A stretch of DNA of 64,000 bases from Prostheceraeus crozeri (Eukaryota; Platyhelminthes; Polycladida; Euryleptidae), in the NCBI GenBank assembly GCA_907163375.1, contig CAJQUW010003469.1, positions 124,001 to 188,000 on the forward strand, read 5' to 3'. This document shows positions 11,630 through 34,213 of this stretch, in pieces. Every line of letters begins with the position of its first letter. The stretch's first letter is position 1. The notes under the pieces were generated by a model. That model had not been told where the DNA came from and made no database searches. It worked only from the letters and a program-made list of their open reading frames with translations. Position numbers and translations under genes: made by a program.

Positions 11630-11746
11630 AATCAGTGAAAATGCAATTTATAAGATGAATGTTTCATAATTCTCCCGATTTTTCTGAAATCCTTTTTGTC
11701 TTCAGTCTAAATGAATATTTAATTTTTCACTCCGCGACATTTTGTA

Positions 11747-11752
11747 AATAAA
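11747..11752 (+). terminator. Polyadenylation signal of dehydrogenase copy 1
   Basis: AATAAA lies 118 bp after the stop codon, in an AT-rich 3' flank. Copy 2 has its own AATAAA at 39087-39092. Confidence 0.55.
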
Positions 11753-14781: not shown

Positions 14782-14787
14782 TACTTG
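14782..14787. other. Left target-site duplication TACTTG
   Basis: TACTTG here is repeated exactly at 34208-34213, immediately outside the two termini of the 19.4-kb element. A 6-bp duplication is the length known for Maverick/Polinton insertion. Confidence 0.9.
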
Positions 14788-15996
14788 AGTAGTAAGCTCA
14801 CCCCAGGCGCAAGTCCAAAATGCGCAACCCCCCCCTCTGTCCGGCAGGTGAGGGAGTTTGCCAAGGATGTGTTGGGAGGAATGGGTCCGAGAGGAGGAAA
14901 CGGTTCCCCCCCTCTGGAAGGAAGGAGGAGTGATGAGGCAAGGGGTGGAATCTCGGAAGGATAGAGTGAGAAACGGCGGGTTTTGGGATGAGAAAGGCTG
15001 GAAATCGTCATGAAGGAGGTCTCGGATTGGAAAATGGAGTGCAGATTCGGACTCTACGTGAAATGTTGGGTTAGGAAAATTGTTGAGGACGTAACCCCCC
15101 CTCCCCTTCCTGCCAAACTTCTAACTTTGGTGTGAGAGATGGTAGAAAGTCGTGCAATAGCTCATTTGAAAGCTAAAAGTGAGAAAAATGCAGTGGAAAG
15201 CTCAGTTTGGTCTAATTTTCCTGGGTTGAGGGAGGAAAATGCCAGGAAAACGTCAGAGTTGAAAAAGTCAGGTTTTGGAGGTTTTGGGATGAGAAAGTCC
15301 ATGTTTCGGTATGAAGGAGTGCTCGGATGGGAAAATGGAGTGCAAATTCGGACGTTTTGGCCACTTTTGGGTCTAGGAACGTCTTCCCAACTCAATTGGA
15401 GAGAAAAAGTTCTGACCCCCCCCTCGCCAACGATCTTCCAACTTTGGTTGTAGACATCGTAGAAAGTCGTGCAATAGCTCATTTGAAAGCTAAAAGTGAG
15501 AAAAATGCAGTGGAAAGCTCAGTTTGGTCTAATTTTCCTGGGTTGAGGGAGGAAAATGCCAGGAAAACGTCAGAGTTGAAAAAGTCAGGTTTTGGAGTTT
15601 TTCGGATGAGAAAGTCCATGTTTCGGTATGAAGGAGTGCTCGGATGGGAAAATGGAGTGCAAATTCGGACGTTTTGGCCACTTTTGGGTCTAGGAACGTT
15701 TTCCCAACTCAATCGGAGAGAAAAAGTTCTGACCCCCCCCCCCTTCGTTAACGATCTTCCAACTTTGGTTGTAGAAATCGTACAAAGTCGTGCAATAGCT
15801 CGTTTGAAAGCTGGGAGTGAGACAAATTCAGTGGAAAACATGGCTTGTTCGTATCTGCCTTCGTTTAGAGGTGAGACTTTATTGAAATTTTGGACATTGA
15901 CGAAAAAACGACAGAGTTAGAATTTTTATGAAAATCGCTCTAGCGGGTGAAGCAAGCCTCGGACGGGAAAACAGAGACCAGATTTGGAATCAGCGT
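14788..15996 (+). repeat. Left terminal inverted repeat
   Basis: This segment matches the reverse complement of 32018-34207. The outer part holds a C-run flanked by GTCCGGCAGGTGAGG, mirrored at about 34140-34165. The inner limit is at TTGGAATCAGCGT; beyond it the two arms differ completely. The arm has about 2.4 copies of the 318-bp unit, against about 5.6 on the right, which explains most of the length difference. Confidence 0.9.
15139..15920 (+). repeat. 318-bp tandem repeats in the left TIR
   Basis: Units start near 15139, 15460 and 15780 (the last is partial). Each contains GTCGTGCAATAGCTC and a run of 7 to 10 C residues. Because the unit length is a multiple of three, long frames stay open on both strands; I do not treat these as genes. 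Confidence 0.85.
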
Positions 15997-16012
15997 ACCA
16001 TTCTGCATCTCA

Positions 16013-16474
16013 ATGTCATTCATGCTATGTCTCCGAAGTGAAAGGAAGAAAGATACAGAAGCAGTAAAGTTTACGGATGAATTTTGTTCACTACGTTTTC
16101 ATCGGCAAAGTCTTCGTGGTGTGATTAGGGACTACATCATCTCCTTTCATCATGAAAAGGCAGACTTAGAATTTGCTATCGCTAAAGGTTACTTCGTTTT
16201 CCAACAGCTCATGGACAGTTTGATGAATAAAGATGTGAAAGGACGATTAGTTGCAGAGATTGAATTTGAGAAAGTGACTGATGAACATTCAAGTGAACGT
16301 GTAGTGTTTCATTTTGCATCCTATTCTGCAGAGACGATACATGATCCCAAAGATTTCTATCAGCGACAGATGGCGAAAATTGCATCTCGACTAGATTCAT
16401 TTCATGAGCATGGATCCAACTTGCTCTTATGTCGCATAAAACACATTCATATTCAACTCAATGTGCTAAACTAG
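16013..16474 (+). CDS. Polymerase-N-domain paralogue 1 (family 1)
   Basis: Predicted 153 residues; I chose the ATG at 16013 because an upstream in-frame ATG (15947) lies inside the inverted repeat. The protein has no named domain that I recognise. It aligns by eye with 19411-19830, with 28243-28695 and with the N-terminal region of the element's DNA polymerase. Shared points are a leading SLRGVIRDY-type helix, DVKGRLVA followed by alternating charged and hydrophobic strands, FYQRQMAKI, and a final IKHIHIQLNVL strand. It opens the first plus-strand gene block, followed by a family 2 gene. The function is unknown; sharing with the polymerase suggests a role in replication, which is inference. 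Confidence 0.65.
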   Translation: MSFMLCLRSERKKDTEAVKFTDEFCSLRFHRQSLRGVIRDYIISFHHEKADLEFAIAKGYFVFQQLMDSLMNKDVKGRLVAEIEFEKVTDEHSSERVVFHFASYSAETIHDPKDFYQRQMAKIASRLDSFHEHGSNLLLCRIKHIHIQLNVLN

Positions 16475-16571
16475 ATTTGACTGCAAGATTTGGGAAAAGC
16501 ATTAATGAGTCGGTCGTCCACGTGCCTCCTTTTCCCTGCCGCAACGAAGTCAGGGGAGAAACGAGGTCTCT

Positions 16572-16736
16572 GATTGGCTCACATAGTGTCAAATGTGGAT
16601 TCGCAGGAGACTATAAAAGCAGACGTCTCCCCATTTTCTCTTCATTTCATTCTCTTGACTTCGAAAGCGTGTGTGACTTGCTGAAGCCATTCTCCGTCTC
16701 AATTTTGTCTGATCAATCCTGTTTGCAAATTTACAA
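16572..16736 (+). promoter_or_regulatory. Promoter and untranslated leader of the first plus-strand unit
   Basis: An inverted CCAAT box (GATTGG, 16572-16577) precedes a TATA box (CTATAAAAGC, 16611-16620). A start region containing TTCATTTCATTC follows at the expected distance. The leader runs to 16736 and ends at a splice donor, CAA|GTGAGTG. The intron 16737-17093 contains GCTATCAA (17033-17040) and ends TTACAG, just before the ATG at 17100. The same plan is seen in two minus-strand units of the element. Confidence 0.6.
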
Positions 16737-16745
16737 GTGAGTGTC

Positions 16746-16934
16746 ATGACTGTCCGACCTAAACCTTACCAGCATTTTAGAAGAGAGACGCAGGAGAGTG
16801 TGTGGCCGATGATTGTACAAGCTTATTTTGTTGAACCATCGCCACCACCGCCTCCACCACCTAGACGCTTTACGTTTAAGTCTTTTAGGGAATTGAAACG
16901 CAATTCCGGTCCTAAGCCCAAGACATTTAATTGA
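16746..16934 (+). CDS. Small proline-rich ORF inside the leader intron
   Basis: A 62-residue frame with a run of seven prolines followed by basic residues lies entirely within the predicted leader intron 16737-17093. It starts 10 bp after the donor. If the leader were left unspliced, it would be the first frame read. There is no recognisable domain, so it may be a chance frame. Confidence 0.25.
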   Translation: MTVRPKPYQHFRRETQESVWPMIVQAYFVEPSPPPPPPPRRFTFKSFRELKRNSGPKPKTFN

Positions 16935-17099
16935 CTGGACGATGACGAAGACTTAGACTTTGGTGATAAGCTTTAAATCATGTGAACGCTCCAAAAGGTC
17001 CTCTTAAGGGCCACCTCATATGTCACTGCTAAGCTATCAATTTTCTTTTCTCTGATGATCATGAATGTGGTTAGTGGTATTCTTTCGTTACAGACTGCC

Positions 17100-17783
17100 A
17101 TGGCCATGAATCATACTCCTACTGCTGCATCACTCAATCCTCAACATCCCGAGCTGTGTAATCCGAAAATTGAAAAGGTAATTCACGGCTATCCTACCTA
17201 CAAACAACAAGTGCGCTACAACGGTGTTCGACTCTATCTTCAAACGCCGGTTGTATACTTACCAAAAGTGGATACGCAAGTAAATCGTTGCGGTCAAAAC
17301 CTGAGTATTCCTATTGATAATTGGTTGCGTCAGCAGCTTGACATTTTAGAAGACGTTGTGCGGCAAAAGGCTCTTATTCCTACTGAACTATTACAGTTGT
17401 GACCAGAAAAGAAAACTTCTTATTATAAACCTTTGTATCGCGGCACTCGCTGCTATATTTTACAAAGCAAGTATTGTAAAGTCACTTCAGGAGTGACAGT
17501 TGAACAGTCAGTTGAAACAGAATTGTCATCGTTAGGCGCAGGCTTTTATTCCTTTCATATTGAGGTACCTGCTGTTTATGTGGGACCCCATCAATCTGAC
17601 GGTAATTTGATTTCTCTCAATTTGCGCGTTGCTCAAATTCATCATCAACCTGAGTTAACAGGTCTTGATCACATTGAGAAAGTCATTGATTCTTGTGTCA
17701 AAGAGTGTCAAGAACCTGTCACTAAACCTAAACGTCGTCGCACATCAAAGAAAGATGGTGCTACCACCAAAGAGAAATCTTAA
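17100..17783 (+). pseudogene. Family 2 protein, copy 1, one internal stop
   Basis: One frame of 228 codons runs from ATG 17100, right after the leader-intron acceptor, to the stop at 17781-17783. It is interrupted by a single TGA at 17400-17402. Both halves align with 20346-20912: an SIPIDNWLRQQLDILED helix before the stop, and GFYSFHIEVPAVYVGP plus a LRVAQI strand after it. The tail is basic (KPKRRRTSKK), suggesting nucleic-acid binding or nuclear import. The fold appears beta-rich. I do not recognise the family; a single-stranded-DNA-binding role would suit a replication element but is speculation. The start overlaps no other gene; the end overlaps the RING-like frame. Confidence 0.6.
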
Positions 17784-17934
17784 GTATTGTAATCAGTTAG
17801 TATGTAGTGAATGTGGAAAACGCGGCCTTGCGCGTTATGTTCAAATAAAACATTGTAATCATGTTGTATGTATCTTTTGTTATGTAAAGGACAGACATCC
17901 TTGTAAAGTTCCTGCTCAATGTATTATTTTGTAA
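17755..17934 (+). CDS. RING-like zinc protein
   Basis: Predicted 59 residues starting at ATG 17755, within the last codons of the family 2 frame but in a different frame. The cysteine/histidine order is C-x2-C-x13-C-x-H-x2-C-x2-C-x7-C-x5-C (VCSECGKR, then CNHVVCIFC, then CKVPAQC). This fits a RING-HC finger except that the last pair is spaced by five rather than two. RING proteins usually act as E3 ubiquitin ligases; whether this one does is unknown. It may be spliced onto an upstream exon rather than start at its own ATG. Confidence 0.5.
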   Translation: MVLPPKRNLKYCNQLVCSECGKRGLARYVQIKHCNHVVCIFCYVKDRHPCKVPAQCIIL

Positions 17935-17956
17935 TTAAGTCTTTTTGATATTGTAG

Positions 17957-19237
17957 GTTGTCATCTTCATAGACAGTGAGGGAACACCCATGCAGGAATT
18001 GAGTGCTATTGCTATGAGAGAAAGTGATCAAACTGTTGTTAGTGTATATCATAGATTTGCCTACTGTCCTCCACACAAAGACGAATGGTTGGCTGGCTGG
18101 CTGGATTACCCGACCCCGTCCCACGGATAGGGGCGTGGCGGAACGCCACGGAGACCGAGGAGGCGGGCAACCCCCCATGGGCGATGCCAAAGATCAAAAA
18201 CAGAGCCCGAGGACCCGAAGATAGCCGCTCGGGTGGAAGAGAGGCAGGGACAAGAGCACAGTAAGTGGGGTACATCGTGGTTTACACCACAAACAGGGCA
18301 GTCAGGAGAAGTGGACCTGCCAATCCTGTGAAGATAGGAGTTGAGAAGAAGGCTGTGGCCGTTGCAACGAAGACGTGAGAGCTCACAACGGACAGCGCGA
18401 GGGAGGGACATGCTACGCTAGTGACTTGTGAAGAAATCAAAGACGAACTAACGGAAGTCCTCCAGGAGTTGAACAGGGAATGACGAATGAAGGACTTCAG
18501 AGAAGACAGACACTGAGGAGCTGCAGAGGGGAGAGAAGTGCCACTTTTGGCAAGCGCATCTGCAGAATCATTGCCACTGATGTTCGAGTGACCAGGAAGC
18601 CACTGCAATGACACTGAGATCGAGGAAGAGCAGAGGGACGACAGAGTGGACGGACCTGGACAAGAGGGGCGACGGGGGTGAAGAGAGCACGGTCAGAGCC
18701 GAGAGAGAGTCGGACAAGAGAAGAAGAGAGGAAAAGAGACATGAGGAGTGATGGGAAACGGACCAAGAGAGAGCATGCTGGATTGCAACCATTTCAGACG
18801 AATGGTCACGACGTCATGTGCATGGACTTGATCCTTCTATTTTGATTCATATTGGATTTGTAAATGAAACGTATTTGATAAGTGATTTCAAACGGTGGCT
18901 GTCAGGTTTTCATATTGTTAAAATATTAGGAAATGATTCTGAACGAGAAGCAACAACACTTCAGTTGCACATTGATAATTTATATTTACCATGTTGGGTA
19001 GATCGTGTAAGACAAGACTATCATATGCATTGTGATCAAAAGAAGTTTAGAGATGAAATGATTTTTGACATGGCAATATGTTTCGGTGATAGAGATCACC
19101 TGTACAGACCACCATCCCATTGTAATACTAGAAATAAAGCTACCTACATTGCAAAACTCTCTTCACGCTGGCATTGTAGTCTCTATGACGTTTATGAACT
19201 GCATCTATATTATTGTCAACAGCATGGGTCTATGTAA
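17957..19237 (+). pseudogene. DEDDh exonuclease-like gene split by a retrotransposon
   Basis: The coding parts are 17957-18089 and 18807-19237; the 706 bp between them plus one 11-bp duplicate are a retrotransposon. Without the insertion the reading frame is continuous. The N-terminal part has VVIFIDSEG, with the D-x-E of motif I in the DEDD exonuclease family. The C-terminal part has HCSLYD, the H-x4-D of DEDDh motif III, and RRHVHGL just after the insertion point. About 188 residues in total. No in-frame ATG precedes motif I. TTGTAG immediately upstream looks like a splice acceptor, so an earlier exon probably supplies the start. A 3'-5' exonuclease would fit DNA replication beside the polymerase. 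Confidence 0.65.
18090..18795 (-). mobile_element. 5'-truncated non-LTR retrotransposon with RNase H
   Basis: The insert is flanked by an exact 11-bp duplication, AGACGAATGGT, at 18079-18089 and 18796-18806. Read on the minus strand it opens inside an RNase H domain (EMVAIQHAL, then DSLSAL, then PGHSNISGNDSADALAK). It continues into a CCHC-type finger (CPVCGVNHDVPHLLCSC) and ends in repeated GCCA rather than poly(A). RNase H plus a C-terminal finger fits elements of the I/Jockey group. One frameshift lies within the RNase H. The insertion destroyed the exonuclease-like gene. Confidence 0.85.
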
Positions 19238-19410
19238 ACCATGTTTTTACTCCTTGTGAATGAATGATGATCATTTTATGAAGTGTATTCTGTACTTGTG
19301 AATTTTGTCTGGTGTTGAATAAACTTACAGTGGAACATGATTGTTATTTCTGTTTTATTCATAGTGGAAGTCATTGAAGCAATGTGAAATCTATAGTTAC
19401 AACGTTTATG

Positions 19411-19830
19411 ATGTCGCATCGTACCTTAAGTAACCACATGTGTCATTTGACACTTGATCAACAAGGATTCGATGGATTTTTACAAGATTGGAAACTTATA
19501 TTTAAAATGAAGATGAATGATATGAAAGTAGCGCTCACTGAAAGCCTTCCTCTCTTCAAAAGATTGATGGAGAGTTTACAACCTCAAGATGTAAAGGGTA
19601 GACTAGTTGCTTATATAGAGTTGAAAGATTTACAAAAACCACTTCGTTTTGGATCTTATTGCACCGAATGGATTACTCTTAGTGATCAATTTTATGGTCG
19701 TCATATGGAGAAAATTATGGAGAGAATAGAAGAGACGATGGAAGGAAATGCATACGTTATTAAACATATCATGATTCAACTGAGTGTGTTTACATCCACG
19801 ACTTTGTTTGATGCGCGACACATTGTGTAG
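19411..19830 (+). CDS. Polymerase-N-domain paralogue 2 (family 1)
   Basis: About 139 residues; either ATG at 19408 or 19411 is possible. It aligns with 16013-16474: DVKGRLVAYIELK matches DVKGRLVAEIEFE, and FYGRHMEKI matches FYQRQMAKI. The end, IKHIMIQLSVF, matches the same terminal strand. It follows the exonuclease-like gene and precedes the second family 2 gene, repeating the order family 1 then family 2 of the left block. AATAAAG follows the stop at about 19836. Function unknown. Confidence 0.65.
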   Translation: MSHRTLSNHMCHLTLDQQGFDGFLQDWKLIFKMKMNDMKVALTESLPLFKRLMESLQPQDVKGRLVAYIELKDLQKPLRFGSYCTEWITLSDQFYGRHMEKIMERIEETMEGNAYVIKHIMIQLSVFTSTTLFDARHIV

Positions 19831-19880
19831 ATGCAATAAAGTTTTCTTTTCACTGAGTATTTTGTAATGGTGTATAGAGC

Positions 19881-20144
19881 AACATGAGTCATTGCGCTTT
19901 GTGCATTACTATCAGGGTCTTTGTTAGATAAATGAATGCGTCTTTGTTCGAGAAAAGGGGCGTGTCATAACATGAGTCATTGCGCTTTGTGCATTACTAT
20001 CAGGCTCTTTGTTAGATAAATGAATGCGTCTTTGTTCGAGAAAAGGGGCGTGTCATAACATGAGTCATTGCGCTTTGTGCATTACTATCAGGCTCTTTGT
20101 TAGATAAATGAATGCGTCTTTGTTCGCTAGAAGGGTCGTGTCAC
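19881..20144 (+). repeat. Three 88-bp tandem repeats with TGAGTCAT
   Basis: Units start at 19881, 19969 and 20057, each beginning AACATGAGTCATTGCGC. The first two are almost identical; the third differs near its end. Each unit holds the AP-1-like site TGAGTCAT. The array lies between a gene and the next promoter, so it may work as an enhancer or replication-related repeat; this is inference. Confidence 0.85.
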
Positions 20145-20274
20145 TCAAGTCTTTGTGAGGACTAGAACGACTTTGTAAGAGGGAAGGTTTCCACCCACGC
20201 AGTCAAAAGTTCACGTGCGATATCTCTTTGTCACATAACAAAGACACGGAAAACATGAAAAGGGAAACGTATGT

Positions 20275-20330
20275 GATTGGAGCTAGGTCTGCTTATAAAA
20301 CGAACGACTGAGCTCATGGCAATCATTTCC
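20275..20330 (+). promoter_or_regulatory. Promoter of the second family 2 gene
   Basis: GATTGG (20275-20280) is followed by TTATAAAA (20293-20300). The expected start site falls near 20321 in ATCATTTCCG, resembling the start region of the first unit. This places the ATG at 20316 at or before the start site and makes the ATG at 20346 the more likely initiator. Confidence 0.5.
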
Positions 20331-20345
20331 GTCCTTGCGCTAACC

Positions 20346-20912
20346 ATGCAGTTGCTCGAAGCCATCAACTCCTCTGCTCTCGCACTGGGTACACTGAACT
20401 CCCTTACTTTAGCATCGGGTAAAAATACTTTCAATCAAAAGGTAACTCATCATGGAGAATCCGTGACCATAAAAACTCAAAGTCATCGGATAGATTATCT
20501 AAAGGTTATGTCAACAAAGTATGGACTGGCCGTGTGTGTGCCGTTAGACTATTGGACACGGTTACAATTCAATACTCTTGAAACATTCCTGAAAGAAAAT
20601 CTCTCCATTCCCAAAGAAATTGTTCGACACAATGGGAAGCGGCCACAAGTTTCCATCATGGAAAGACGATACATGTATGTGCATATGGTGAGACACTGTC
20701 TCATCATCCATGAAAAGGAGGGCAGCGAATTCGACTTACTCAATTGCAAACCACTCCCCATTTTGGGAAAAGGATTCTACTCCTTCGAAATTAAAATTCA
20801 AACCGTCTACATGGGTCCGCGCAGCGACGGAAGGTTGTTTACGTTGAATCCCTATCTTGTCTCCATCACCTTTAAAACTGATGTCCATGTTGATGATGAT
20901 CAACTACAGTAA
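20346..20912 (+). CDS. Family 2 protein, copy 2
   Basis: About 188 residues with an uninterrupted frame. The start was chosen from the TATA position. It aligns with 17100-17783 along its length: VPLDYWTRLQFNTLE against IPIDNWLRQQLDILE, and GFYSFEIKIQTVYMGP against GFYSFHIEVPAVYVGP. It lacks the basic tail of copy 1 and ends in an acidic stretch instead. No known domain is recognised. It follows family 1 copy 2 and precedes the TBP homologue, and its intact frame suggests it decayed less than copy 1. Confidence 0.65.
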   Translation: MQLLEAINSSALALGTLNSLTLASGKNTFNQKVTHHGESVTIKTQSHRIDYLKVMSTKYGLAVCVPLDYWTRLQFNTLETFLKENLSIPKEIVRHNGKRPQVSIMERRYMYVHMVRHCLIIHEKEGSEFDLLNCKPLPILGKGFYSFEIKIQTVYMGPRSDGRLFTLNPYLVSITFKTDVHVDDDQLQ

Positions 20913-21068
20913 CACTCCACACACTGAGAACGCACCATCGGTCTTTATGAGACCACGGCCTAACGGCCACCATATCAAGAAAGAAAATGTACACTCACCA
21001 TGCCACACATGAGCATGACTCTCTCTCCTTCTTTCTTAGGCATACCCTTCTTCACTCAGGTTTGAATC

Positions 21069-21698
21069 ATGTGGAAATTATCAGCATGGCTCCATGTATC
21101 ATGGAAAAGTCAGTGTGTTACATTTCATGATATGAAACGTCAACTTCAGATCACTCTAGAACGCTTTCATCTACGAAAGTTGCATCGCGCAATCCTATCC
21201 AACTCTTGCCGTGTCATTAACGTAGGAGACGGCATTGTATTTATTCGCATTCAAGAGATGATTCTACATAATGATCACTGCTACATTGTGATTCCGAAAC
21301 CCTCATTGGAAAAGTATAAAAGGGAAGTTCACTCAACCCTCATGTCATTTGTGAGTCATGCTCCCCATCCGCATCATCAACGCCATGCGCGAAATGAATC
21401 TCAGAAGAGACATCGATTTAGAACAGTTGCATACCCATCTTCCCGATTCAGTATATCATCGAGGTCGTCCGCAAATGTTGGTCATTCGCATGAGCAACGG
21501 TCGAAATCTTCAAATCTTTCGCTGCGGCAAAATCCAAGTCCTAGGAAACCCTTCTCATTTCGTGATGCAGTCCATGTGTTACGAAGTCGTCAAGAAAATG
21601 CGAACACTCATGCCTCATCTACGCCTCAGTCCCCTGACATTGAAGAATATAGTAGTGTCTGTTCAATTGAAGATGTTAGTGAATCTAGCCAACATTAA
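21069..21698 (+). CDS. Unknown protein overlapping the TBP homologue
   Basis: An open frame of 209 residues starts just after a good splice acceptor (TTCTTCACTCAG at about 21048-21059). The first 96 residues do not overlap another gene and read like a compact mixed fold with basic residues. The rest, rich in serine, lies in another frame under the TBP homologue and may be chance coding. I do not recognise any domain. The N-terminal part could be a separate gene or a leader exon for TBP. Confidence 0.35.
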   Translation: MWKLSAWLHVSWKSQCVTFHDMKRQLQITLERFHLRKLHRAILSNSCRVINVGDGIVFIRIQEMILHNDHCYIVIPKPSLEKYKREVHSTLMSFVSHAPHPHHQRHARNESQKRHRFRTVAYPSSRFSISSRSSANVGHSHEQRSKSSNLSLRQNPSPRKPFSFRDAVHVLRSRQENANTHASSTPQSPDIEEYSSVCSIEDVSESSQH

Positions 21699-21897
21699 AA
21701 CCAGTAATCATTGTATATTTTACGAAACTGAACTCTTTCCTGCTGCTCTGATTCGGAAGTGGCATCCTGTACATATTGCAGTGTTTCACAACGGACATTG
21801 TATCATGACTGGTTTACGTGATATCAGTAAAGTAGCTGACATTGCTAAATCTTTAATGCGTTATCTGTATGAGTCACAGTTAATGGAATCGTGTTAA
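21358..21897 (+). CDS. TBP-like: TATA-box-binding-protein homologue
   Basis: A frame of 179 residues contains two TBP-type repeats. The first (about residues 5-82) holds LQIFRCGKIQVLG, corresponding to the IF..GK...TG strand of TBP. The second (about 95-175) holds LKNIVVSVQL, then YETELFPAALIR and IAVFHNGHCIMTG, matching the YEPELFPGL and IF.SGK..LTG region of eukaryotic TBP. The phenylalanines in both strands are at positions where TBP inserts into the minor groove. The frame has no stop and is about the size of the TBP core. TBP recruits RNA polymerase to TATA promoters. Here it may direct transcription of the element's own TATA-box promoters (inference). TBP-like proteins are known from some large DNA viruses; I know of none in Polintons. 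Confidence 0.8.
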   Translation: MLPIRIINAMREMNLRRDIDLEQLHTHLPDSVYHRGRPQMLVIRMSNGRNLQIFRCGKIQVLGNPSHFVMQSMCYEVVKKMRTLMPHLRLSPLTLKNIVVSVQLKMLVNLANIKTSNHCIFYETELFPAALIRKWHPVHIAVFHNGHCIMTGLRDISKVADIAKSLMRYLYESQLMESC

Positions 21898-21916
21898 TCA
21901 CATGATGTGTTTTGAA

Positions 21917-22190
21917 TGAGTCATCGCAATGAACTATCGCCCACACTCTTGTCAGTGAAAAGGTCATCAACAAGGTTCTTCGCTTTATGATGAGTCAGCG
22001 CTATTTATAGACATGAAATGATATCCATACACTTGTCGGTGAAAAGGTCACGCTGTCTGACGTGAGGCGCCATCGATGTTGAATGACACGCCCACACACG
22101 TGTCGGTGAAAAGGTTGAACAAGACTGATTAGATTCTTATGACTGGAACTTTACCCCTTCATGAGTCAGAGCTATTTATAGACATGAGTC
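21917..22190 (+). promoter_or_regulatory. Cluster of TGAGTCA, TTTATAG and GTCGGTGAAAAGGT modules
   Basis: GTC(A/G)GTGAAAAGGT occurs at 21951-21964, 22034-22047 and 22102-22115. TGAGTCAGCGCTATTTATAG (21991-22010) and TGAGTCAGAGCTATTTATAG (22163-22182) are near-identical modules with an AP-1-like site 9 bp from a TATA-like box. Further TGAGTCA sites occur at about 21917 and 22185. The repetition suggests regulatory or replication elements; no gene start is seen directly downstream. Confidence 0.4.
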
Positions 22191-22293
22191 AGCAAAGTGG
22201 TTGATGTTTCGTAAGCCGAAGAAATTGTCATGATGTTACATGCGTTGGTGAGGATGTTAACTTACAAACTCGAACATGGTTGACTTCAAATCA

Positions 22294-22374
22294 TCAACTT
22301 TATTTCTAACTTTACAAGCGTCAACTTTATTTCTAACTTTACAAGCGTCAACTTTACTTCTAACTTTACAAACT
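22294..22374 (+). repeat. 27-bp tandem repeat, three units
   Basis: The unit TCAACTTTATTTCTAACTTT plus ACAAGCG repeats at 22294, 22321 and 22348, the last with two changes. Looser copies follow to about 22480. Confidence 0.8.
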
Positions 22375-22884
22375 CTAACATGGTTATGACTTCATTTATA
22401 TTTCACCTATCTTACAATCAGCGACATGGTGATAACTTTATTTCTAACTTACAATCAACAACTTTATTTCTAACCCTACCCATCTTACAAAATGATTAAA
22501 ACTTTTACTTCTGTCTAATGAGTAAGAATCCCATCTTTATGTCAAAAGGAAAACATCACAGTATGTACATGATATGTTAATTCATCAACACAACCGATTT
22601 TCATCACAGCCACATGCAGTTAATACTGATGGTAGCAGAAAACTAAGTTTTTATGGCTCACATCACCGGAGAAAACAAAGTCACTGATAGGCAGGGAGAA
22701 AACAAAGTCACTCATGTGCAGGGAGAAAACAACGTCAGAAAAAACCAGTTGATATGCAAGTCATGATATGAAGTGATCAGGAGTTGGACGCATGTTACAA
22801 GGCACTCACTCACAACACCCCATAGAAAACGCCATGGAGCGAAAAAGCAAAACATCAACCACAACAGAGAGGAAGCATTCATCA

Positions 22885-25800
22885 TCAGACATCGCCGGAC
22901 GGAGGAGGAGAAAGTTTCTGTCTCTTGGGTGGAGGTAGATGAGTGTCTGGATGGCCGTACGGTAATGAGTGGTTAGGACTCATCCAGCATCGCTTGTCTT
23001 CCCAAGCTGAGAGACCTCGTTTCCTAAACGTCGTTCTGACTTGATGCGACTGTGATTTTAAAATGGTCATTTCTACTTTTTTAATTTTAAGAGAATCTAA
23101 AGCATCTTGATAGTCCCTATGTGTCATTTTTCTAACGATTGACTTCGAGATGCCTTTCGCCCGTTATATAGAAAGCTCTGAGGATTTGGCTTCATGGAGT
23201 ACATCTTGGGGCGAAGAAAGATCATCTCTATCTGTTTGCCGGCACACTCATCCTTGAAGCAGCCAAGCTTCGCTTTATTTGAGGTAGAGTAAAGCGGATG
23301 GTCAGTGGGATAGTTGGAACTATCAAACTTGGGTGCTTAATGTTTTAAAATGTCTTCCTGCTTGACTTGGCTCGTGGTTGTCAAAGCTAGGAAGAAGCTG
23401 TCTGTATCACCTACTAATTCCACACGTTGGAGAAGTGGACATGTCTTAAAGTGTGGTAAAATAACTTGTACATTTCTAACTTGGAGTGATCCAAGACAAT
23501 TTTACCGACATAAATGGGCTTACAAAGTTCTACTTTAGATTTTAACATTTTTAAACCAGTGATGTCTTCGGAAATGACATCATGGTGGCAAAACAACGGC
23601 GAGCGACATAGCTTGATACTCGTTTCCGGATCAGTTACGATACGATAGTCCATGCGCTTTCTTACATCCTCAATGGTTTTACCAAAGAGGGCATTATTCT
23701 TCAATTTAAAGAAGTCCTTTTCGAAAGGATTCTTGGATTCAGCCCGTTTCTTACTATTAAATTCTATATACGGTTTTAGAAAGGGCTTCTGCCTAAACTG
23801 GATAGCGCGATGGACTTTGTCAAGTCGTATCCCCATACCCAGATAGAATTTGAGGATGGAATAGTGCACGATGTAATGCTGTTTGTTCAATTGGGTGAGC
23901 AACAACTTCCAGAACATATCTGGACTGACTATGCCAGATTCGCGTGCGAGAGGAAAATCAACGTTCCTATTCTTAATACAGTCTGGATAGATGAGGTCGA
24001 CTTCAGATAAATAACCTATGTCGGCCTCATCTCCCAGTGCCATGATGTGTGCTGGATTTGAGAAGTGGTCAATGTCATGGGGCTCTACCCATTGGAAGTC
24101 AGACTGTGGCAAAGGTTTGGAGAGTGCACTCCCATACAAGTTATTTTGGTCTATGTACATTAAATGCGTGGTCGATCCTATGTCTTGGGTGCTGTTGACA
24201 ACATGTTTGTTAACAAATGTCAAGCCACCCCTAATACCACGTTCAAATAACGTGTACATTTCTGCATCTTGCATTGAATGAATGCTCTCTTTCGTCATCT
24301 TGAAGGCTGAGAAATAGGACAGACCCGGCAGACTAACAACATGAACGGGGTCTAAGGCGTCCTGTTCTAATGTGACTTTCCTAAAAGTCTGAAACACGTC
24401 AGCCAACAGATAGACGTCTAATTTTAAGTAGGCAAGCATGTAGTCACCAAGCGTGCGGCACCTAAATTCTAACCATTCTTGCTCTGCATGCCTATAATCA
24501 TCCAGCGAACAGTCCTCACCCGTCAAATCATTTTTAAATTTATCGATGGACGGAAGGGATGTTTCTTTCAATGTATACATTGAACTAAAATAACTATAAG
24601 GAAACACCCCTTTCCGTAGTATCAGACTGTCACTTATGTTGGGATAGTCTTTCCTTAAATGTTGAGTGAGGGGAAGTGTTTCTAAATTATTAGCCAACGC
24701 GGCTAAGGAAGAAGACATAAACTGCAAACTGTCTAGAAACTTTATCTCATAGAAGACAGGCTTCCCCTCCTTTGTCTTATCGACTTGGACTTTAGCAGTG
24801 ATGCACATAAATTTTTCCTTACTTTGTGCAATCACTTTGGATGACCAGGATTTCATTTTACCGAATCCATGGCGAATGATGATGTGAGCATCATAACATT
24901 TAAAGTTATGGAAGATGACGGGGAGCGTTCGCCGTTAGAGCCTAAGTTTCATATTGCATTTACTGCATAAGGCAGACCTAAATTTACCACTGAGATGGCA
25001 ATGGTCCCTCACTTTCTTATGTTGCTGATCATCAAAGGATGAACAGCAGCGGGGACATTCCGTGTTCCTATCAAATTTGATTTTATCGGCTTCTGTGAAG
25101 CACATGGGTTTCCTAGTCAGCTCCGTTTCATACCGTTGATGAAAACGGGCTTTCCTATCTAAAAAGTTGAGGAAGTTTTTAACGCACTCCTCGCCTTGCC
25201 ACACGCATTTTATTTTGGTTCCTATAATATGGATGCCAAACTTCATAACAGGCAATGGCTGCTGGCTCATGACTTAGATCTTGTTCAATATAACATTCAA
25301 TGTCTGCATAGATGGTACATATGGGACTGAGCTCATTGCCGTTTTCCTCATACCTATAAAATTTATCTTTGGGCATGACTTCCATTTGAAGTTTACCCCG
25401 AGAGCACCACTCGTAATGTTGTTCAAAATATGGTTTAGATGTGAAACGCCGTGTGCAGCGATCACAGTAGTAGAAATTATCCCTATAGGTTGCTTGATGA
25501 TGGTATAACTTTGAAATTTTAGGAATGCCACAATAATGCCATTCTGGGTGGTTGTCGCTATAGACTAGGAGGAGATTGACAACCCGGTCGAAGTTACTTT
25601 GGCGATTATTATACCTAACGCCCTTCAGACCTTTTTCCCAGAGATGGACGACAATCCTAATGTTATTCAATTTTTCAAATTGGGCGATGCCTTTAAAATC
25701 TATTGTGTTGACATCTAACCCATCAAACTTAAGCTCATCCTCCCATTCACAATACTTGGTGACTCTTTGACGATGCATGCCTATATCATTATAGTGAAGA

Positions 25801-26368
25801 ATGGAGAGGACGGCGTACTTGAAACACTGGGACTGACACTCTACATTGATGACAGCCTTTTTGTCAGCCAGTGCTTTGGGGAGGGTGAAACAACCACTCC
25901 CTTGTAAATTTTCTAAAAGATTGATTTTGATGTCTACCTTCTCTATCCCATCAAAGACCAGACCGCTGTCTCTTTCATTAAATTTATTTAAGTTGCTGAC
26001 GAGATAGGTCGCATGTCTCTCTATCCACTCGTTCACATCACCTATGAGATCAGCAGCACAGGAGGCTATCCTAATGGTCACAGTGGACTCTACTTCTCCC
26101 GTGCTACTGTCTACCTTATTGAAACGAGCAGTGAGATAGAACATGCCCTTAAGTAAAAACCTATCTAATCTCGCCAACATTTGATGAATTAAGCCTATAT
26201 TATTCATCAAGAAAGGATGAATGTCTTGTACAGCTTCAGAGCTTTCTAAATCATAGTCGCGAACGAGCCTCTCAAGGGAAAACTTGCTCAGCCTTAGAGT
26301 GACGTTGTTGTCTGTGTAAAGCTCAGTGGAATGTGTGTGACAGAGTGTGTGCGAAGAAAGAACAAACT
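22885..26368 (-). pseudogene. pPolB: Type-B DNA polymerase, protein-primed family, main exon with breaks
   Basis: The minus-strand frames in order cover a full family-B polymerase. An N-terminal domain shared with family 1 is followed by a CFTLPKALADKKAVINV linker region. Exonuclease motifs follow: YADIECYIE, HNFKCYDAH and YLKLDVYLLADVF. The polymerase motifs are YIDQNNLYG (A), KLKNNALFGKT (B) and GDTDS (C), then LRPKMYS near the C-terminus. Breaks are a frameshift near 25190-25260, TAA at 24935-24937, a frameshift near 23415, TAA at 23337-23339 and a frameshift near 23160. The protein-primed subgroup is the one found in Polintons, adenoviruses and bidnaviruses. This copy cannot give a full-length enzyme as it stands. 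Upstream coding exons are listed separately. Confidence 0.85.
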
Positions 26369-26458
26369 CTGTAGGAAAGGTCTTCTGTCACGAAGAACAG
26401 GAAAAGCCGACGTGCGATGAAGGATGCTTCCTACCTGATGACGTTGGTTGCCTCACAC

Positions 26459-27646
26459 TGCCACAGGAACCGCCTTCGATGTGGACTCGCAAGTTGGTGC
26501 TGTTGTAGAACGTGCGTCCACAACCTTCACACTTGGGCCGTTGAGGGATGGGTCGACGCTTTCCTCCCCTGCAGGCATGACCAGCGGTGTGACGTCTCAC
26601 ATTGTAGGCTGAGGCGAAGACCCTGTCACACCGCTGGCATCGAAAGTCCTCCACTTCGACTTCAATCTCCCTCTCCTCTCCGACTATCTCTAACTCCTGT
26701 TCCTCCAACAGTCCACCGACTTGACGGAGAGGAGAGGGAGGTCGACCGCTGCAGGTGGTGGTGGTGGCGATGCAGGGATGATGAGGCAGGAGGGAACGTT
26801 GCCGTCCTAGAGGTAGGCCGCCAGATCTGTTGAGAAAAAGAGATTAGTAACATGATCAACATTTCAAGTTTGAAATCTTATCCCCCTATTTCCCAATCAT
26901 GGATACTTACCATCTAAGGACTGCAACTCCGGCAGCAGCGATGGACGCGGAGGAGGTAGGAGTGGGACGCGGGTCGAAGGTGGAAGGGTCCTTGGCTTCG
27001 GTGTCGGAAGGATGTGGTGACGGGGAGCAGTGACTGGCACAGGTACCGGTGCTGGCGACGGTGGAGGTTGGACAATGGCCGAGGTCGGTGGATGGTAGGG
27101 AGTTGTTTGGTTGGTAGTGGTGGTGGAGCGGGAAGGTAGGGCCGGAATTTCGTCATTAAATCTCCGCCTCGCGGCTTCCTCCCACTTCTTCATATTCGCC
27201 AAGTCTGTAGATAGGGAAAAGAGATGAGATTAGAGGTTGCGGAGACAACAATGATGGAGAGCAAGCTATACGAACACAGATGTGCTAAAACATGACATTC
27301 CAACTCTCATAGGTGAGGGTACTTACACTTTCCAAGCCGCTCGTAAGCTTGCCCGATTGCTCCTTGGGGAACGGGTCATGCACTGAAAAAGAATGACAGC
27401 AAAGATAAGCAGAGCTAAAATTTGGATTCGGTTTAAACATGAGCAAAATAAGGGAGTGGCTCTTGATTTCAATGAGAATGTGTACCCTAATGATGTTAGT
27501 AATAGAATCAACCTTAATACAAATACTTACATTGCTCGATGGTAGCCTTCTCCATCTCAGCAGATATGCGGTAATTTTCAATTTTTGCGAATTCCATGAT
27601 GGACAGTCGATTGTAGATGATTAATGGTAGGCATAAACTTCAATCA
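26459..27646 (-). CDS. 5' exons of the polymerase gene with C2H2 zinc fingers
   Basis: Likely exons are 27531-27646 (ATG at 27597), 27327-27382, 26911-27204 and 26459 to about 26826. Each is bounded by clear GTAAGT donors and pyrimidine-rich CAG acceptors. They encode a short N-terminus, a proline-rich stretch and two fingers: CQRCDRVF (C-x2-C-x12-H-x3-H) and CEGCGRTF (C-x2-C-x12-H-x5-C). A TGA at 26388-26390 follows the fingers, but a 90-bp intron (26369-26458) would remove it and keep the frame into the polymerase. Two junctions need secondary splice sites to stay in phase. Zinc fingers ahead of such polymerases are known in invertebrate genomes. Confidence 0.6.
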
Positions 27647-28053
27647 CTGAAAAGGAAAATGAGAATCGTTTCATTTGCCTAGTCAACGTTTATCATGGGA
27701 ACAATCATTGAAGTGACATCTAATGAATTACATTTCACTCTACTCCATGTCATAAAGACTAACCTTTGTCGAATGGCTGAAGTACTCTGACCTGGCGAGA
27801 GAAAGCATCACGTTGAGTATGAAGTCGAACGCCCAACATGAGCAACGGCTCAGAGGTTTCGGTCTAACAAACGACGAACATCCCGTGCAACACAATCCCT
27901 CTACGGCAGTACCCGCCGTCCCGAAGGAACGCTCGAGCAAAGGAGGTATTACAGCGATGATATGTTTTATGAGCAGAAGATGTGATAGCAAGAGACTATT
28001 CAACTTGATAGCAAGTCAAAACAACCTGCTAGCAGGAGCTCACCGACACTCAC
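27647..28053 (-). promoter_or_regulatory. Leader intron of the polymerase unit with GATAGCAA motifs
   Basis: The donor CAAG|GTGAGTG (intron from 28053) and the acceptor CTTTTCAG (to 27647) delimit an intron ahead of the first coding exon. It holds GATAGCAA at 27984-27991 and 28007-28014, which read GCTATC on the transcribed strand. The same motif lies in the other leader introns of the element. Confidence 0.55.
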
Positions 28054-28144
28054 CTTGTGAAAGATAAATGTGAAGAGCAGAGCTGATACACTGCCTTTTA
28101 TAAGATTTTCCTAAGCGGTGAATGGATCAGACCTCTCGTCCAAT
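28054..28144 (-). promoter_or_regulatory. Promoter of the polymerase unit
   Basis: On the minus strand an inverted CCAAT (28140-28144) is followed by TATAAAAG (28095-28104). A leader of about 20 bp ends at the donor at 28054. CCAAT-TATA spacing (about 40 bp) matches the first plus-strand unit. The plus-strand gene at 28243 starts divergently 100 bp away. Confidence 0.6.
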
Positions 28145-28242
28145 CACAGACGAGCTAGAGTTCCCGATGTGCGCACGCACATTTGTAACGCGTTCTTGAA
28201 ATCGTGTTGTTTACAACATGATGTTTAGCAATAGACTCAACT

Positions 28243-28695
28243 ATGGCACCTGAAGTCAATACATTGAAACATGATGATTGTACGATTCGTTGTCATCAAG
28301 AGAGCTTCGGAGGCTTAATACAAGATTACATCCTTGAGTTTCAAAGGGAGGAGACAGAATTGGAAGCATGTTTAGACTACACACGAAAAATATTTACGGA
28401 GTTGATATCTTATTTCAAAGACAGTCTGATCAAGGCTCATTTAATTGCACATGTCAATTACATTCATTTTCCACCAGGTGAAGTAGCGGGAAGTGTTGAT
28501 TTTCAATTTCCTTCCTATGGACAAGAATATATTACTGATGCTTCTGAGTTTTATACACGACACCTGTGGAAGATTATTTCTCGGATGGACAACTTCCATG
28601 GTTACGGCGATCATTTGCTTCTGAATAAAATATACCATATTGTCATTGCTATTAGTAAAGTGGGTTTCAATGATGTTAAATCAAAGACCAAATAA
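28243..28695 (+). CDS. Polymerase-N-domain paralogue 3 (family 1)
   Basis: A frame of 150 residues starts at ATG 28243 and ends just before AATAAAG (about 28692), with no breaks. It aligns with the other family 1 copies: IRCHQESFGGLIQDYI against LRFHRQSLRGVIRDYI, FYTRHLWKI against FYQRQMAKI, and a final KIYHIVIAISKV strand. It lies head-to-head with the polymerase promoter, so the two may be controlled together. Its function is unknown. It may bind the same partner as the N-terminal domain of the polymerase (inference). Confidence 0.7.
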   Translation: MAPEVNTLKHDDCTIRCHQESFGGLIQDYILEFQREETELEACLDYTRKIFTELISYFKDSLIKAHLIAHVNYIHFPPGEVAGSVDFQFPSYGQEYITDASEFYTRHLWKIISRMDNFHGYGDHLLLNKIYHIVIAISKVGFNDVKSKTK

Positions 28696-28899
28696 AGTAT
28701 TTTTCATGACACTTGTGTTGTGCTTAACTTTCTAGGGCTGTGGTGAACACTGTTTTCATATAATATTCTAAACTCTGTCTTACTGCAGTAGAAAACTCCT
28801 TTTAGTAAACCTGATGAAGCTTATCTAACAGTTATGGAGTTTGAATATTCTAATTGGGAAAAATTTGACGACTGTCTCCAATAAAACTTTCTAACACTG

Positions 28900-29540
28900 A
28901 AAGTAAGTTACAAGACAATCTACACTGTGCAGTAAAACCTTCTAAAACTTTCCAGTGCTGTGATGAGTTCGGTCAGTCATACAACTTCGATGATTAAACT
29001 TGATTTTCACAAACGTGCGTCGCGGTAAAAACTATTTGACTACACTAACGCTTGCATTTCATGACATGTGTGTTTCATTAAACGTCATGATCAAACTTTT
29101 CTAACTATACATCAACCTGTGTTGCAGTAAAACTTATACAAACCATGATACGCTTTCTGACGACACTCACGAATAAACGTCATGATCAAACTTTACTTTC
29201 TCAAACGGGTGTCGCGGTAATATTATTTGACTACACTAACGCTTACATTTCATAACACTTGTGTTTCATAAAACATCATGATCAAACTTTTCTAGCTATA
29301 CATCAACCTGTGCTGCAGTAAAACCTTTGTACAACATGATAAAGTTTCTGACTAGACTTATGAATAAACGTCATGATCAAACTTTCTAACTATACATCAA
29401 CCTGTGTTGCAATGAAACTTTTGTACAACATGATAAAGTTTCTGACTAGACTTACGAATGAACGTCATGATCAAACTTTCTAACTATACATCAACCTGTG
29501 TTGCAATGAAACTTTTGTACAACATGATAAAGTTTCTGAC
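28900..29540 (+). repeat. Degenerate 94-bp tandem array
   Basis: AAACGTCATGATCAAACTTT recurs at about 29078, 29172, 29270, 29363 and 29457, spaced 94-96 bp. Accompanying pieces are CAACCTGTGTTGCA and ACAACATGATAAAGTTTCTG. No gene lies within. The array separates family 1 copy 3 from the right-hand minus-strand gene. Confidence 0.8.
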
Positions 29541-29769
29541 GACACTGACAAGAGCTTCTTCACTAGCGAAGAGAGAAATCTGTGATGTGTTGCGTGTGGC
29601 GCAAGGGTGGCCTCCCATTTCATTCCATTCATCATTTTTCTTTCCCTCTGCATTCCATATCCGAAGATATTTGGCGGGCTGGGGATCGCTTTAGCTGCAT
29701 TAGAAGATTGGCCCTTAAAAGAGCCCATTGGTCGTTCTCCGTCCACCGACACTCACTTCTGCAAAATCT

Positions 29770-30039: not shown

Positions 30040-30864
30040 CTAATGCAGTCGCTCAACTTCACCCGCCAACCTCTTATTTATGTCCTTCACCTCCTCCGTC
30101 TCCTTCACCACGCTTCGCATCCGCTCTGTCTCTTTATCCTTCCTCGACAAACTCGCCTGCAAACTCTCCACCAAACCTGCCTTCCTCATCAACTCGCTCC
30201 TTTCCGCAATCCATTCCTTCTCCTTCTTTCTCATGCTCTCCAACTCTTCCCTCGTTGCCCTATGCCCCTCAACCTTCACCGTCAGCTCTTCATTCTCCTT
30301 CAAAACTTTTCTATTAACACTTTCCAACCCCATAATGCGATCCTTCATCCTTACAAATGCCTCCGTATCATACTCCTCTTCCCGCCGTGGCGATGACGCT
30401 GCCATCGGCTTACCCACTTCCTTCCCCTCCCCCTCCAGATCACCGATATCCCCAAACAAATCCTCAATCACCTTATCCAAATCAACATCAACCTTCTTGT
30501 TCATTTTCGCTCTCAACTCAACTTCATCACTAGCCTTCGTCACCACTTTCTCCCCAACCACGTCCTCAATAGTTGCCACCGCCTTCCTCACCTCTTCCCT
30601 TTCCAACAACTCTCCCTCAAACCACTCCTTGAACCCTGCCATAGCTATATTGCCACTTGGACACTCGTTGTGATCCTTAATAAACGTCACCTCATTCCCT
30701 TCCCCACATACCACCCGATGATGCACGCACACTCTCAACAACACCTCTCTCATATGCGCGCCCACCGTCCCCTCTTTCATGTGCTTCTTCAGCTCACTGC
30801 CTCTGGCAATCTTGCCGCAACTGCATTTGCCAACAAGCATTCTAGCATTGCCTGATTTCTTCAT
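30040..30864 (-). CDS. Cysteine-rich and coiled-coil protein
   Basis: Predicted 274 residues from ATG 30864, directly after the acceptor TCTATCTTTACAG. The N-terminal third has cysteines and histidines (GKCSCGK, then HM...HM, CVHHRVVC) that could bind zinc. The middle is acidic. The C-terminal half, from about residue 175, is a strongly charged heptad-like helix rich in E, K and R, as in a coiled coil. I do not recognise a family. The gene has its own TATA promoter and leader intron and may once have extended beyond its TAG stop. A structural or DNA-organising role is possible but only inferred. Confidence 0.6.
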   Translation of the reverse strand: MKKSGNARMLVGKCSCGKIARGSELKKHMKEGTVGAHMREVLLRVCVHHRVVCGEGNEVTFIKDHNECPSGNIAMAGFKEWFEGELLEREEVRKAVATIEDVVGEKVVTKASDEVELRAKMNKKVDVDLDKVIEDLFGDIGDLEGEGKEVGKPMAASSPRREEEYDTEAFVRMKDRIMGLESVNRKVLKENEELTVKVEGHRATREELESMRKKEKEWIAERSELMRKAGLVESLQASLSRKDKETERMRSVVKETEEVKDINKRLAGEVERLH

Positions 30865-30871
30865 GATAATT

Positions 30872-32017: not shown

Positions 32018-34207
32018 ACGCTGATTCCAAATCTGGTCTCTGTTTTCCCGTCTGAGGCTTGCTTCACCCGCTAGAGCAATTTTCATAAAAATTCTAACTC
32101 TGTCGTTTTTTCGTCAATGTCCAAAATTTCAATAAAGTCTCACCTCTAAACGAAGGCAGATACGAACAAGCCATGTTCTCCACTGAATTTGTCCCACTCC
32201 CAGTTTTCAAACGAGCTATTGCACGACTTTCTACGATGTCTACAACCAAAGTTGGAAGATCGTTGCCGAGGGGGGGGTCAGAACTTTTTCTCTCCAATTG
32301 AGTTGGGAAGACGTTCCTAGACCCAAAAGTGGCCAAAACGTCCGAATTTGCACTCCATTTTCCCATCCGAGCACTCCTTCATACCGAAACATGGACTTTC
32401 TCATCCCAAAACCTCCAAAACCTGATTTTTTCAACTCTGACGTTTTCCTGGCATTTTCCTCCCTCAACCCAGGAAAATTAGACCAAACTGAGCTTTCCAC
32501 TGCATTTTTCTCACTTTTAGCTTTCAAATGAGCTATTGCACGACTTTCTACGATGTCTACAACCAAAGTTGGAAGATCGTTGCCGAAGGGGGGGGTCAGA
32601 ACTTTTTCTCTCCGATTGAGTTGGGAAGACGTTTCTAGACCCAAAAGTGGCCAAAACGTCCGAATTTGCACTCCATTTTCCCATCCGAGCACTCCTTCAT
32701 ACCGAAACATGGACTTTCTCATCCCAAAACCACCAAAACCTGACCTTTTCTCACTCTGACGTTTTCCTGGCATTTTCCTCCCTCAACCCAGGAAAATTAG
32801 ACCAAACTGAGCTTTCCACTGCATTTTTCTCACTTTTAGCTTTCAAATGAGCTATTGCACGGCTTTCTACGATGTCTACAACCAAAGTTGGAAGATCGTT
32901 GCCGAAGGGGGGGGGGGTCAGAACTTTTTCTCTCCGATTGAGTTGGGAAGACGTTCCTAGACCCAAAAGTGGCCAAAACGTCCGAATTTGCACTCCATTT
33001 TCCCATCCGAGCACTCCTTCATACCGAAACATGGACTTCCTCATCCGAAAAACTCCAAAACCTGACTTTTTCAACTCTGACGTTTTCCTGGCATTTTCCT
33101 CCCTCAACCCAGGAAAATTAGACCAAACTGAGCTTTCCACTGCATTTTTCTCACTTTTAGCTTTCAAATGAGCTATTGCACGACTTTCTACGATGTCTAC
33201 AACCAAAGTTAGAAGATCGTTGCCGAAGGGGGGGGTCAGAACTTTTTCTCTCCGATTGAGTTGGGAAGACGTTCCTAGACCCAAAAGTGGCCAAAACGTC
33301 CGAATTTGCACTCCATTTTCCCATCCGAGCACTCCTTCATACCGAAACATGGACTTCCTCATCCGAAAAACTCCAAAACCTGACTTTTTCAACTCTGACG
33401 TTTTCCTGGCATTTTCCTCCCTCAACCCAGGAAAATTAGACCAAACTGAGCTTTCCACTGCATTTTTCTCACTTTTAGCTTTCAAATGAGCTATTGCACG
33501 ACTTTCTACGATGTCTACAACCAAAGTTGGAAGATCGTTGCCGAAGGGGGGGGTCAGAACTTTTTCTCTCCGATTGAGTTGGGAAGACGTTCCTAGACCC
33601 AAAAGTGGCCAAAACGTCCGAATTTGCACTCCATTTTCCCATCCGAGCACTCCTTCATACCGAAACATGGACTTTCTCATCCCAAAACCTCCAAAACCTG
33701 ATTTTTTCAACTCTGACGTTTTCCTGGCATTTTCCTCCCTCAACCCAGGAAAATTAGACCAAACTGAGCTTTCCACTGCATTTTTCTCACTTTTAGCTTT
33801 CAAATGAGCTATTGCACGACTTTCTACGATGTCTACAACCAAAGTTGGAAGATCGTTGCCGAAGGGGGGGGTCAGAACTTTTTCTCTCCGATTGAGTTGG
33901 GAAGACGTTTCTAGACCCAAAAGTGGCCAAAACGTCCGAATTTGCACTCCATTTTCCCATCCGAGCACTCCTTCATACAGAAACATGGACTTTCTCATCC
34001 CAAAACCACCAAAACCTGACCTTTTCTCACTCTATCCTTCCGAGATTCCACCCCTTGCCTCATCACTCCTCTTTCCTTCCAGAGGGGGGAGACCCGCTTC
34101 CTCCTCTCGGACCCATTCCTCCCAACACATCCTTGGTGAACTCCCTCACCTGCCGGACAGAGGGGGGTTGCGCATTTTGGACTTGCCCCTGGGATGAGCT
34201 TACTACT
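32018..34207 (-). repeat. Right terminal inverted repeat
   Basis: This is the inverted counterpart of 14788-15996, with TGAGCTTACTACT at the outer edge and ACGCTGATTCCAA at the inner edge. It is longer than the left arm by about three 318-bp units. The outermost 200 bp is closely similar to the left arm. Confidence 0.9.
32213..34010 (-). repeat. 318-bp tandem repeats in the right TIR
   Basis: Units start at about 32213, 32530, 32849, 33170, 33488 and 33806, spaced 317-321 bp, each with GAGCTATTGCACG. G-runs of 7 to 10 vary between units. Open frames of 98-415 residues on both strands arise because most units are multiples of three and lack stops; I do not count them as genes. Confidence 0.9.
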
Positions 34208-34213
34208 TACTTG

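Follow-up and report, generated by a model that had tools for sequence, protein, structure and literature searches.

Small virus-like transposons are thought to rely on promoter recognition by the host. Mirusviruses and giant viruses have large genomes and mostly protist hosts. TATA-binding protein (TBP) is encoded in 59% of mirusvirus genomes versus 0% of Nucleocytoviricota in one survey (PMC10132985), sporadically in mirusvirus-like elements of an alga, and in nimaviruses, as wsv303 of white spot virus and its endogenous nimavirus homologues (PMC10871703). Beta- and gammaherpesviruses have TBP-like proteins (BcRF1, ORF24, UL87) that steer host RNA polymerase II to viral late promoters and read TATT; ORF24, a viral TBP mimic acting in this way, requires TBP-like phenylalanines (PMC12529657), and its predicted structure is said to be incompatible with direct TFIIB binding. 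Vertebrate Mavericks are described with 6-bp target duplications and ends that most often carry AGT twice and ACT twice (PMC8097293). Described here is a TBP homologue of a Maverick/Polinton-type element in the polyclad flatworm Prostheceraeus crozeri. The element lies in a stretch of 64,000 nucleotides (assembly GCA_907163375.1, contig CAJQUW010003469.1, positions 124,001 to 188,000), hereafter the window. Coordinates are those of the window (Table 1).

Description of the TBP homologue

The frame is open from the ATG at 21358 to the stop codon ending at 21897 and encodes 179 amino acids. Pfam family PF00352 is matched in two stretches (E 1.9e-22, 79.3 bits; curated cut-off 22.9 bits). YETELFP and two IF/VF..G strands are present in the translation. 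A PDB sequence search with the frame finds 35 sequences (best E 7.3e-11), 34 of them named TBP or TFIID, fusions among them; the other is the ECU04_1440 protein. Two direct repeats in a two-fold saddle are predicted for the structure. Identity as a TBP homologue, proposed in a sequence-only reading of the window from the intact frame, both repeats and these motifs, is confirmed by the strong profile score, and the modelled saddle agrees with it. Rfam gives 0 matches.

On the DNA face, both minor-groove asparagines, three of the four phenylalanines and T309 are retained. F193 is replaced by proline, V216 by glutamine and T218 by leucine; the same three positions are replaced in a second TBP family of this genome, described below. 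The stirrup, YE[PT]ELFP, is retained in both families. Roles of the asparagine, phenylalanine and stirrup positions are presumed to be those in TBP structures. The pattern of kept and replaced residues fits a C-terminal half that would bind TATA and TFIIB normally and an N-terminal half that would read something else or avoid host regulators. The predicted saddle, PF00352, both asparagines, three phenylalanines and the stirrup are shared with cellular (archaeal, eukaryotic) TBP. The element protein differs from it in being carried by a mobile element, in its altered N-terminal half, in the overlap of its gene with another frame and in forming a long-stemmed clade of its own with the second family.

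Identity is about 22% to yeast TBP, 24–26% to 15 archaeal TBPs and 18% to two viral-contig TBPs. In a tree of 19 rows the TBPs of the two families form one clade (support 100/100; stem 4.93 changes per column); the long stem and the unlike letter make-up leave host versus virus origin unsettled by this tree. IMG/VR searches with the window TBP, with an alignment of both TBP families, with the polymerase piece and with the second-family open reading frame (ORF) find no relatives; a general TBP alignment finds four contigs, whose TBPs are 50–52% identical to yeast TBP. The predicted model matches 42 rows of BFVD with E up to 0.001; named giant-virus TBPs are found by it, despite the surveyed 0% in Nucleocytoviricota. 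Mirusvirus and giant-virus TBPs are alike in being encoded by viruses; sequence identity of the 42 BFVD matches is 8–18%. Nimavirus TBP is also virus-borne, in large viruses, and is likened here by gene listing. Herpesvirus late-gene mimics are larger proteins than the element TBP.

Copies in the genome and the second family

Copy searches cover the 2.05-Gb assembly containing the window. The TBP protein has at least 150 scored places including the window (11,346 first-look candidates); among the 150 listed, all are 96–100% identical to the window TBP and 148 have no stop. Twenty loci of about 10 kb were picked around TBP places for reading of the neighbourhood. B2 lies directly upstream in 19 and the polymerase gene, or at least part of it, downstream in 17; the TBP gene is therefore a regular component of the element. 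First noticed in one copy, it recurs in at least 149 further places and in a second, diverged family.

A search of the same genome with yeast TBP (150 scored) finds exon pieces of the host gene (79% and 86% identical, contig C9306), a single place at 39% identity that contains a stop, and at least 147 further rows at 23–26%. One of the latter, when read, encodes a TBP of 181 amino acids, 44% identical to the window TBP (Pfam E 5.8e-21, 74.6 bits). Searched with this protein, the genome has at least 150 places; among those listed, 150 of 150 are 99–100% identical and have no stop. An ORF of 428 amino acids lies on the other strand, 1314–1316 bp beyond the TBP gene, in 52 of 80 places (80 of the 150 listed TBP places, compared with 150 listed places of the ORF). 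It may resemble a Polinton virion protein; the 151-amino-acid part read has no Pfam or PDB match. Neither this ORF nor its neighbour is found in the window, 28 window-family loci and 39 short places (E up to 1). A basic, Gly/Arg-rich ORF (L155 459–899, minus strand) lies beside it; no Pfam family is above cut-off.

Inverted pairs of TBP places 4–6 kb apart gave the idea of a separate small TBP transposon inside the Polinton. It was set aside: the three pairs read are dimers of the same element. L098, L099 and L100 are truncated head-to-head inverted dimers with the junction inside the polymerase region, and might stem from aberrant strand-displacement replication. L091 and L110 are of a rearranged form, in which the TBP block adjoins not B2 but an inverted segment matching 28.7–29.6 kb of the window.

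Selection on the TBP frame

Copies chosen by TBP score are biased; the analysis therefore uses 39 places located through DNA similarity to B2, the gene next to TBP. A first ratio of nonsynonymous to synonymous rates (dN/dS) of 0.15 was dropped as evidence because TBP protein score had been the criterion for choosing its copies. A TBP match is present in 38 of the 39 places: 19 are open over the full length without a gap, 10 contain gaps, 5 are interrupted only by a stop and 4 are partial. The variant set comprises 34 places and the window; L125, L133, L146, L151 (too short or without match) and L119 (inverted partner) were left out, and the remaining gapped rows stayed in. Among private variants, 39 are silent, 135 missense and 8 nonsense, a ratio of 3.67 versus a neutral expectation of 3.66. 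Shared variants are 15 silent, 16 missense and 1 nonsense, a ratio of 1.13. The contrast is significant (Fisher p 0.0038; p 0.0026 without four further gapped rows) and fits purifying selection during spread of the element with neutral decay after insertion. Of 31 shared variants in the polymerase piece (13 rows), 23 are at third positions.

TATA boxes and the overlapping ORF C

A TATA-like box is present within 130 nt at three of the ten start codons examined: TBP (−43, TATAAAAG), B2 (−22, TATAAAA, exact in 20 of 22 rows) and the minus-strand ORF starting at 30864 (−46). The earlier claim that the element has TATA promoters of its own holds for these three starts; it does not extend to the other seven, and TATAAAAG shows no clear enrichment over the window (6 versus 3.3 expected; 6 or more in 9 of 100 shuffles). 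Conservation of the box before the TBP gene is perhaps partly a protein constraint, because it also encodes the ORF C residues EKYKR.

ORF C extends over 338 nt at the start of the TBP gene, and the arrangement is the same in the second family. Overlapped ORF C parts of the two families align with a score of 100; when the second-family TBP is recoded synonymously 1000 times, the score is 44 (standard deviation 13, maximum 87). The observed open length is matched by none of 1000 recodings for the second family and by 2 of 1000 for the window, under a null model that assumes saturated silent sites. Non-overlapped parts align weakly, with a score reached by 1 of 500 shuffles. Against coding by ORF C, 15 of 20 shared versus 79 of 106 private variants within the window family change it, with no separate constraint in the overlap. 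Doubly changing variants are depleted among the shared ones (4 of 20 versus 59 of 106, p 0.006), a depletion that can come from TBP alone. ORF C is open in 20 of 36 rows (insertions unchecked). By these comparisons dual coding of TBP and ORF C is likely. The acidic C-terminal tail suggests an activator and goes no further. In L154 a partial duplicate of the N-terminal part of ORF C (680–950) lies just upstream of the second-family ORF C.

Proposed function and alternatives

The gene is read as the TBP gene of a Maverick/Polinton-type element, kept by selection through spread and serving element promoters via TFIIB and RNA polymerase II; a probability of roughly 0.6 is given to this joint reading. 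It is built on what is observed: homology to TBP, the setting within an element, the number of copies, the presence in two diverged families, the pattern of selection, the position of the TATA box and the overlap with ORF C. The near-canonical C-terminal half would bind the TATA-like box of element promoters, and the stirrup would recruit host TFIIB and hence RNA polymerase II. The altered N-terminal half (F193 to P, V216 to Q, T218 to L) may prefer element promoters or escape host TBP regulators. From the TATAAAAG box the protein would drive element genes, probably of the replication stage or late and including TBP itself. ORF C, whose frame shares this DNA with TBP, may act as a partner or activator of TBP. 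The element TBP could capture or bias transcription, as the sequence-only reading had suggested.

Several points weigh against this joint reading. The single-sequence structure model has a pLDDT (predicted local distance difference test) of 37, and the TBP fold of the good model is partly imposed, because its input was an alignment that included true TBPs. One of the four kinking phenylalanines is lost in both families (F193 to proline). Of the 38 unselected places with a TBP match, 19 are intact and the other half are damaged. The pooled pairwise ratio in the unselected set is 0.58 in the TBP frame versus 0.56 and 0.94 in shifted frames; pooled ratios do not discriminate frames, and only the shared-versus-private contrast is therefore used. 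No TATA-like box lies within 130 nt of seven of the ten start codons examined. No integrase or capsid gene is recognised in the window copy. Use of TFIIB is not to be taken for granted, because the structure predicted for ORF24 is given as incompatible with direct TFIIB binding.

The N-terminal half of TBP is where regulators such as TFIIA bind. Its alteration, with the TFIIB-facing stirrup retained, would also suit a decoy that binds host TATA boxes or parts of TFIIB/TFIID and blocks or redirects host transcription (host shut-off), with no part in element promoters. Such a decoy is unlikely: the TATA box before the TBP gene, at the same distance in both families, fits self-directed use, and three phenylalanines and both DNA-binding asparagines are retained. 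A similarly low probability is given to a role out of transcription, as a DNA-bending protein in replication or packaging of the element at origins or terminal repeats. In 17 of the 20 picked loci the polymerase gene neighbours the TBP gene, and nearby element repeats are candidate binding arrays for such a protein, whereas the protein–protein stirrup YE[PT]ELFP, unneeded for bending alone, persists in both families, whose overall identity is 44%.

An ORF24-like mimic, recruiting the polymerase without TFIIB via a partner such as ORF C, is improbable. ORF C overlaps the TBP gene and has a similar counterpart in the second family, and ORF24 is described as pre-assembling with the polymerase and ORF34 (PMC12529657); the element TBP, however, is a bare core of 179 amino acids with a canonical-looking stirrup, and lacks the extra C-terminal domain by which ORF24 adds DNA contacts (PMC12529657). 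Elements do acquire host genes, and the damage to half of the unselected copies (19 of 38 intact) would suit an accidentally captured host TBP carried as a functionless passenger or pseudogene. This is very improbable, since yeast TBP is matched at 79 and 86% identity by the host exon pieces and at about 22% by the element protein (host capture or retrocopy was rejected on these values), a TBP common to two diverged families is hard to hold with capture unless capture was independent, and shared variants avoid amino-acid changes.

In the literature on Polintons/Mavericks or transposable elements together with TBP (titles and abstract openings of the matches listed, without subscription papers and supplements), no report of TBP in an animal Maverick is found, in agreement with the earlier remark that no such gene is known in described Polintons. 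The Maverick/adintovirus papers searched inside have 0 occurrences of TATA. Tentatively, and less probably than not, Maverick-type elements of this animal may carry a compact dual-coded transcription module (TBP with overlapping ORF C) and start transcription with a promoter-recognition factor of their own; with open copies running to hundreds or more, their TBP genes would far exceed host TBP in number and might limit or rewire transcription of the host. If service to element promoters is true, a TBP that selection has preserved in both diverged families would render the elements partly independent of host promoter recognition, a minimal natural TBP with altered specificity would be available for study, and an animal nucleus would contain hundreds of foreign TBP genes. 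A small animal element joins the TBP-encoding virus-like elements, which bears on the origin of TBP in nimaviruses, mirusviruses and giant viruses.

Description of the element and its other genes

The element spans 14788–34207 (19,420 bp), with TACTTG (6 bp) on both sides in the window copy. Within the outermost 200 bases, the terminal repeats agree at 188 of 198 aligned positions. Tandem units of about 317 bp in the terminal repeats (15094–15868, 32018–34162) are unequal in number between the ends. Vertebrate Maverick/Polinton elements are alike in AGTAGT...ACTACT ends and the 6-bp target duplication (PMC8097293) and in the family-B polymerase; they are unlike in that no TBP is in the described gene set and TATA has 0 occurrences in that text (PMC8097293). 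Terminal inverted repeats of (AGT)2/(ACT)2 type with a 6-bp duplication are established for the window copy only. The polymerase is of family B (DNA_pol_B_2, 8e-21), with protein priming predicted; as earlier noted, it is broken in the window copy, its pieces being in different minus-strand frames.

Integrase (rve), capsid, ATPase and protease give no family above cut-off in singly scanned ORFs of this one damaged copy. They are also not found in stop-masked (X) frames (plus strand 15996–22500 and 26000–31500; minus strand 15996–19500 and 22500–31500), a weak negative, as the minus-strand scan missed the known polymerase; ORFs were then scanned singly. A match to plant-virus peptidase PF05533 (19.6 bits, cut-off 25) was taken as chance. 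Polinton type, as first proposed, is assigned because of the ends, with their duplication, and the polymerase; the four other gene types are unrecognised in the window copy, which alone does not establish full membership.

Table 1. Features of the element in the window.
Feature	Position	Strand	Evidence or remark
TBP homologue, 179 amino acids, two TBP repeats	21358..21897	+	profile, PDB search, predicted structure
ORF C, 210 amino acids, overlaps TBP gene in another frame	21066..21698	+	motif R[KR]PFSFxxAVxxLR and acidic tail common to second family
TATAAAAG box within ORF C, 43 nt ahead of the TBP ATG	21315..21322	+	exact in 30/37 copies; box and distance same in second family
Family-B DNA polymerase, C-terminal piece (DNA_pol_B_2)	23414..24934	-	E 1.4e-17; longer frame 8e-21
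Polymerase gene piece with endonuclease VII-like region	24935..25273	-	E 2.3e-6
N-terminal polymerase piece; first domain homologous to stand-alone A proteins; weak C2H2-like finger	25179..26387	-	
ORF immediately ahead of polymerase start, two good C2H2 zinc fingers	26388..26843	-	E 3.5e-11
A1, stand-alone homologue of polymerase N-terminal domain	16013..16474	+	
A2, homologue of A1 and A3	19408..19830	+	
A3, stand-alone homologue of polymerase N-terminal domain	28243..28695	+	
B1, B2 relative, split over two consecutive frames	16986..17783	+	
B2, 198-amino-acid protein without known family, directly upstream of ORF C and TBP	20316..20912	+	
ORF of 274 amino acids, Cys/His-rich N-terminus, probable coiled coil (by eye)	30040..30864	-	no family above cut-off
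Three 88-bp tandem units, each with TGAGTCA	19881..20144	+	unit number differs between copies
Retroelement fragment (RNase H) inserted in window copy	18090..18795	-	absent from site-spanning copies L106, L109
Left target-site duplication TACTTG	14782..14787		
Right target-site duplication TACTTG	34208..34213		
Left terminal inverted repeat, starts AGTAGT	14788..15996		~317-bp tandem units inside
Right terminal inverted repeat, terminates ACTACT	32018..34207		six ~318-bp tandem units inside

A proteins match one another with E down to 3e-27, and A1 and A3 clearly match the polymerase N-terminal domain (2e-10). In related polymerases the first domain is read as terminal protein (PMC11071308); given this homology, the element may encode several separate terminal-protein relatives (A1–A3). 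B1 and B2 form a second duplicated pair (16986–17783, 20277–20912), so that the A–B block is seemingly present twice. Tandem arrays are at 19881–20144, 21917–22191 and L110 5241–6263, with a widely varying unit number (about ten in L110). TGAGTCA of the window arrays is presumably AP-1-like. The element lies between two short-chain dehydrogenase gene regions (8226–12702, 35241–40284), of the same orientation and up to 99% identical.
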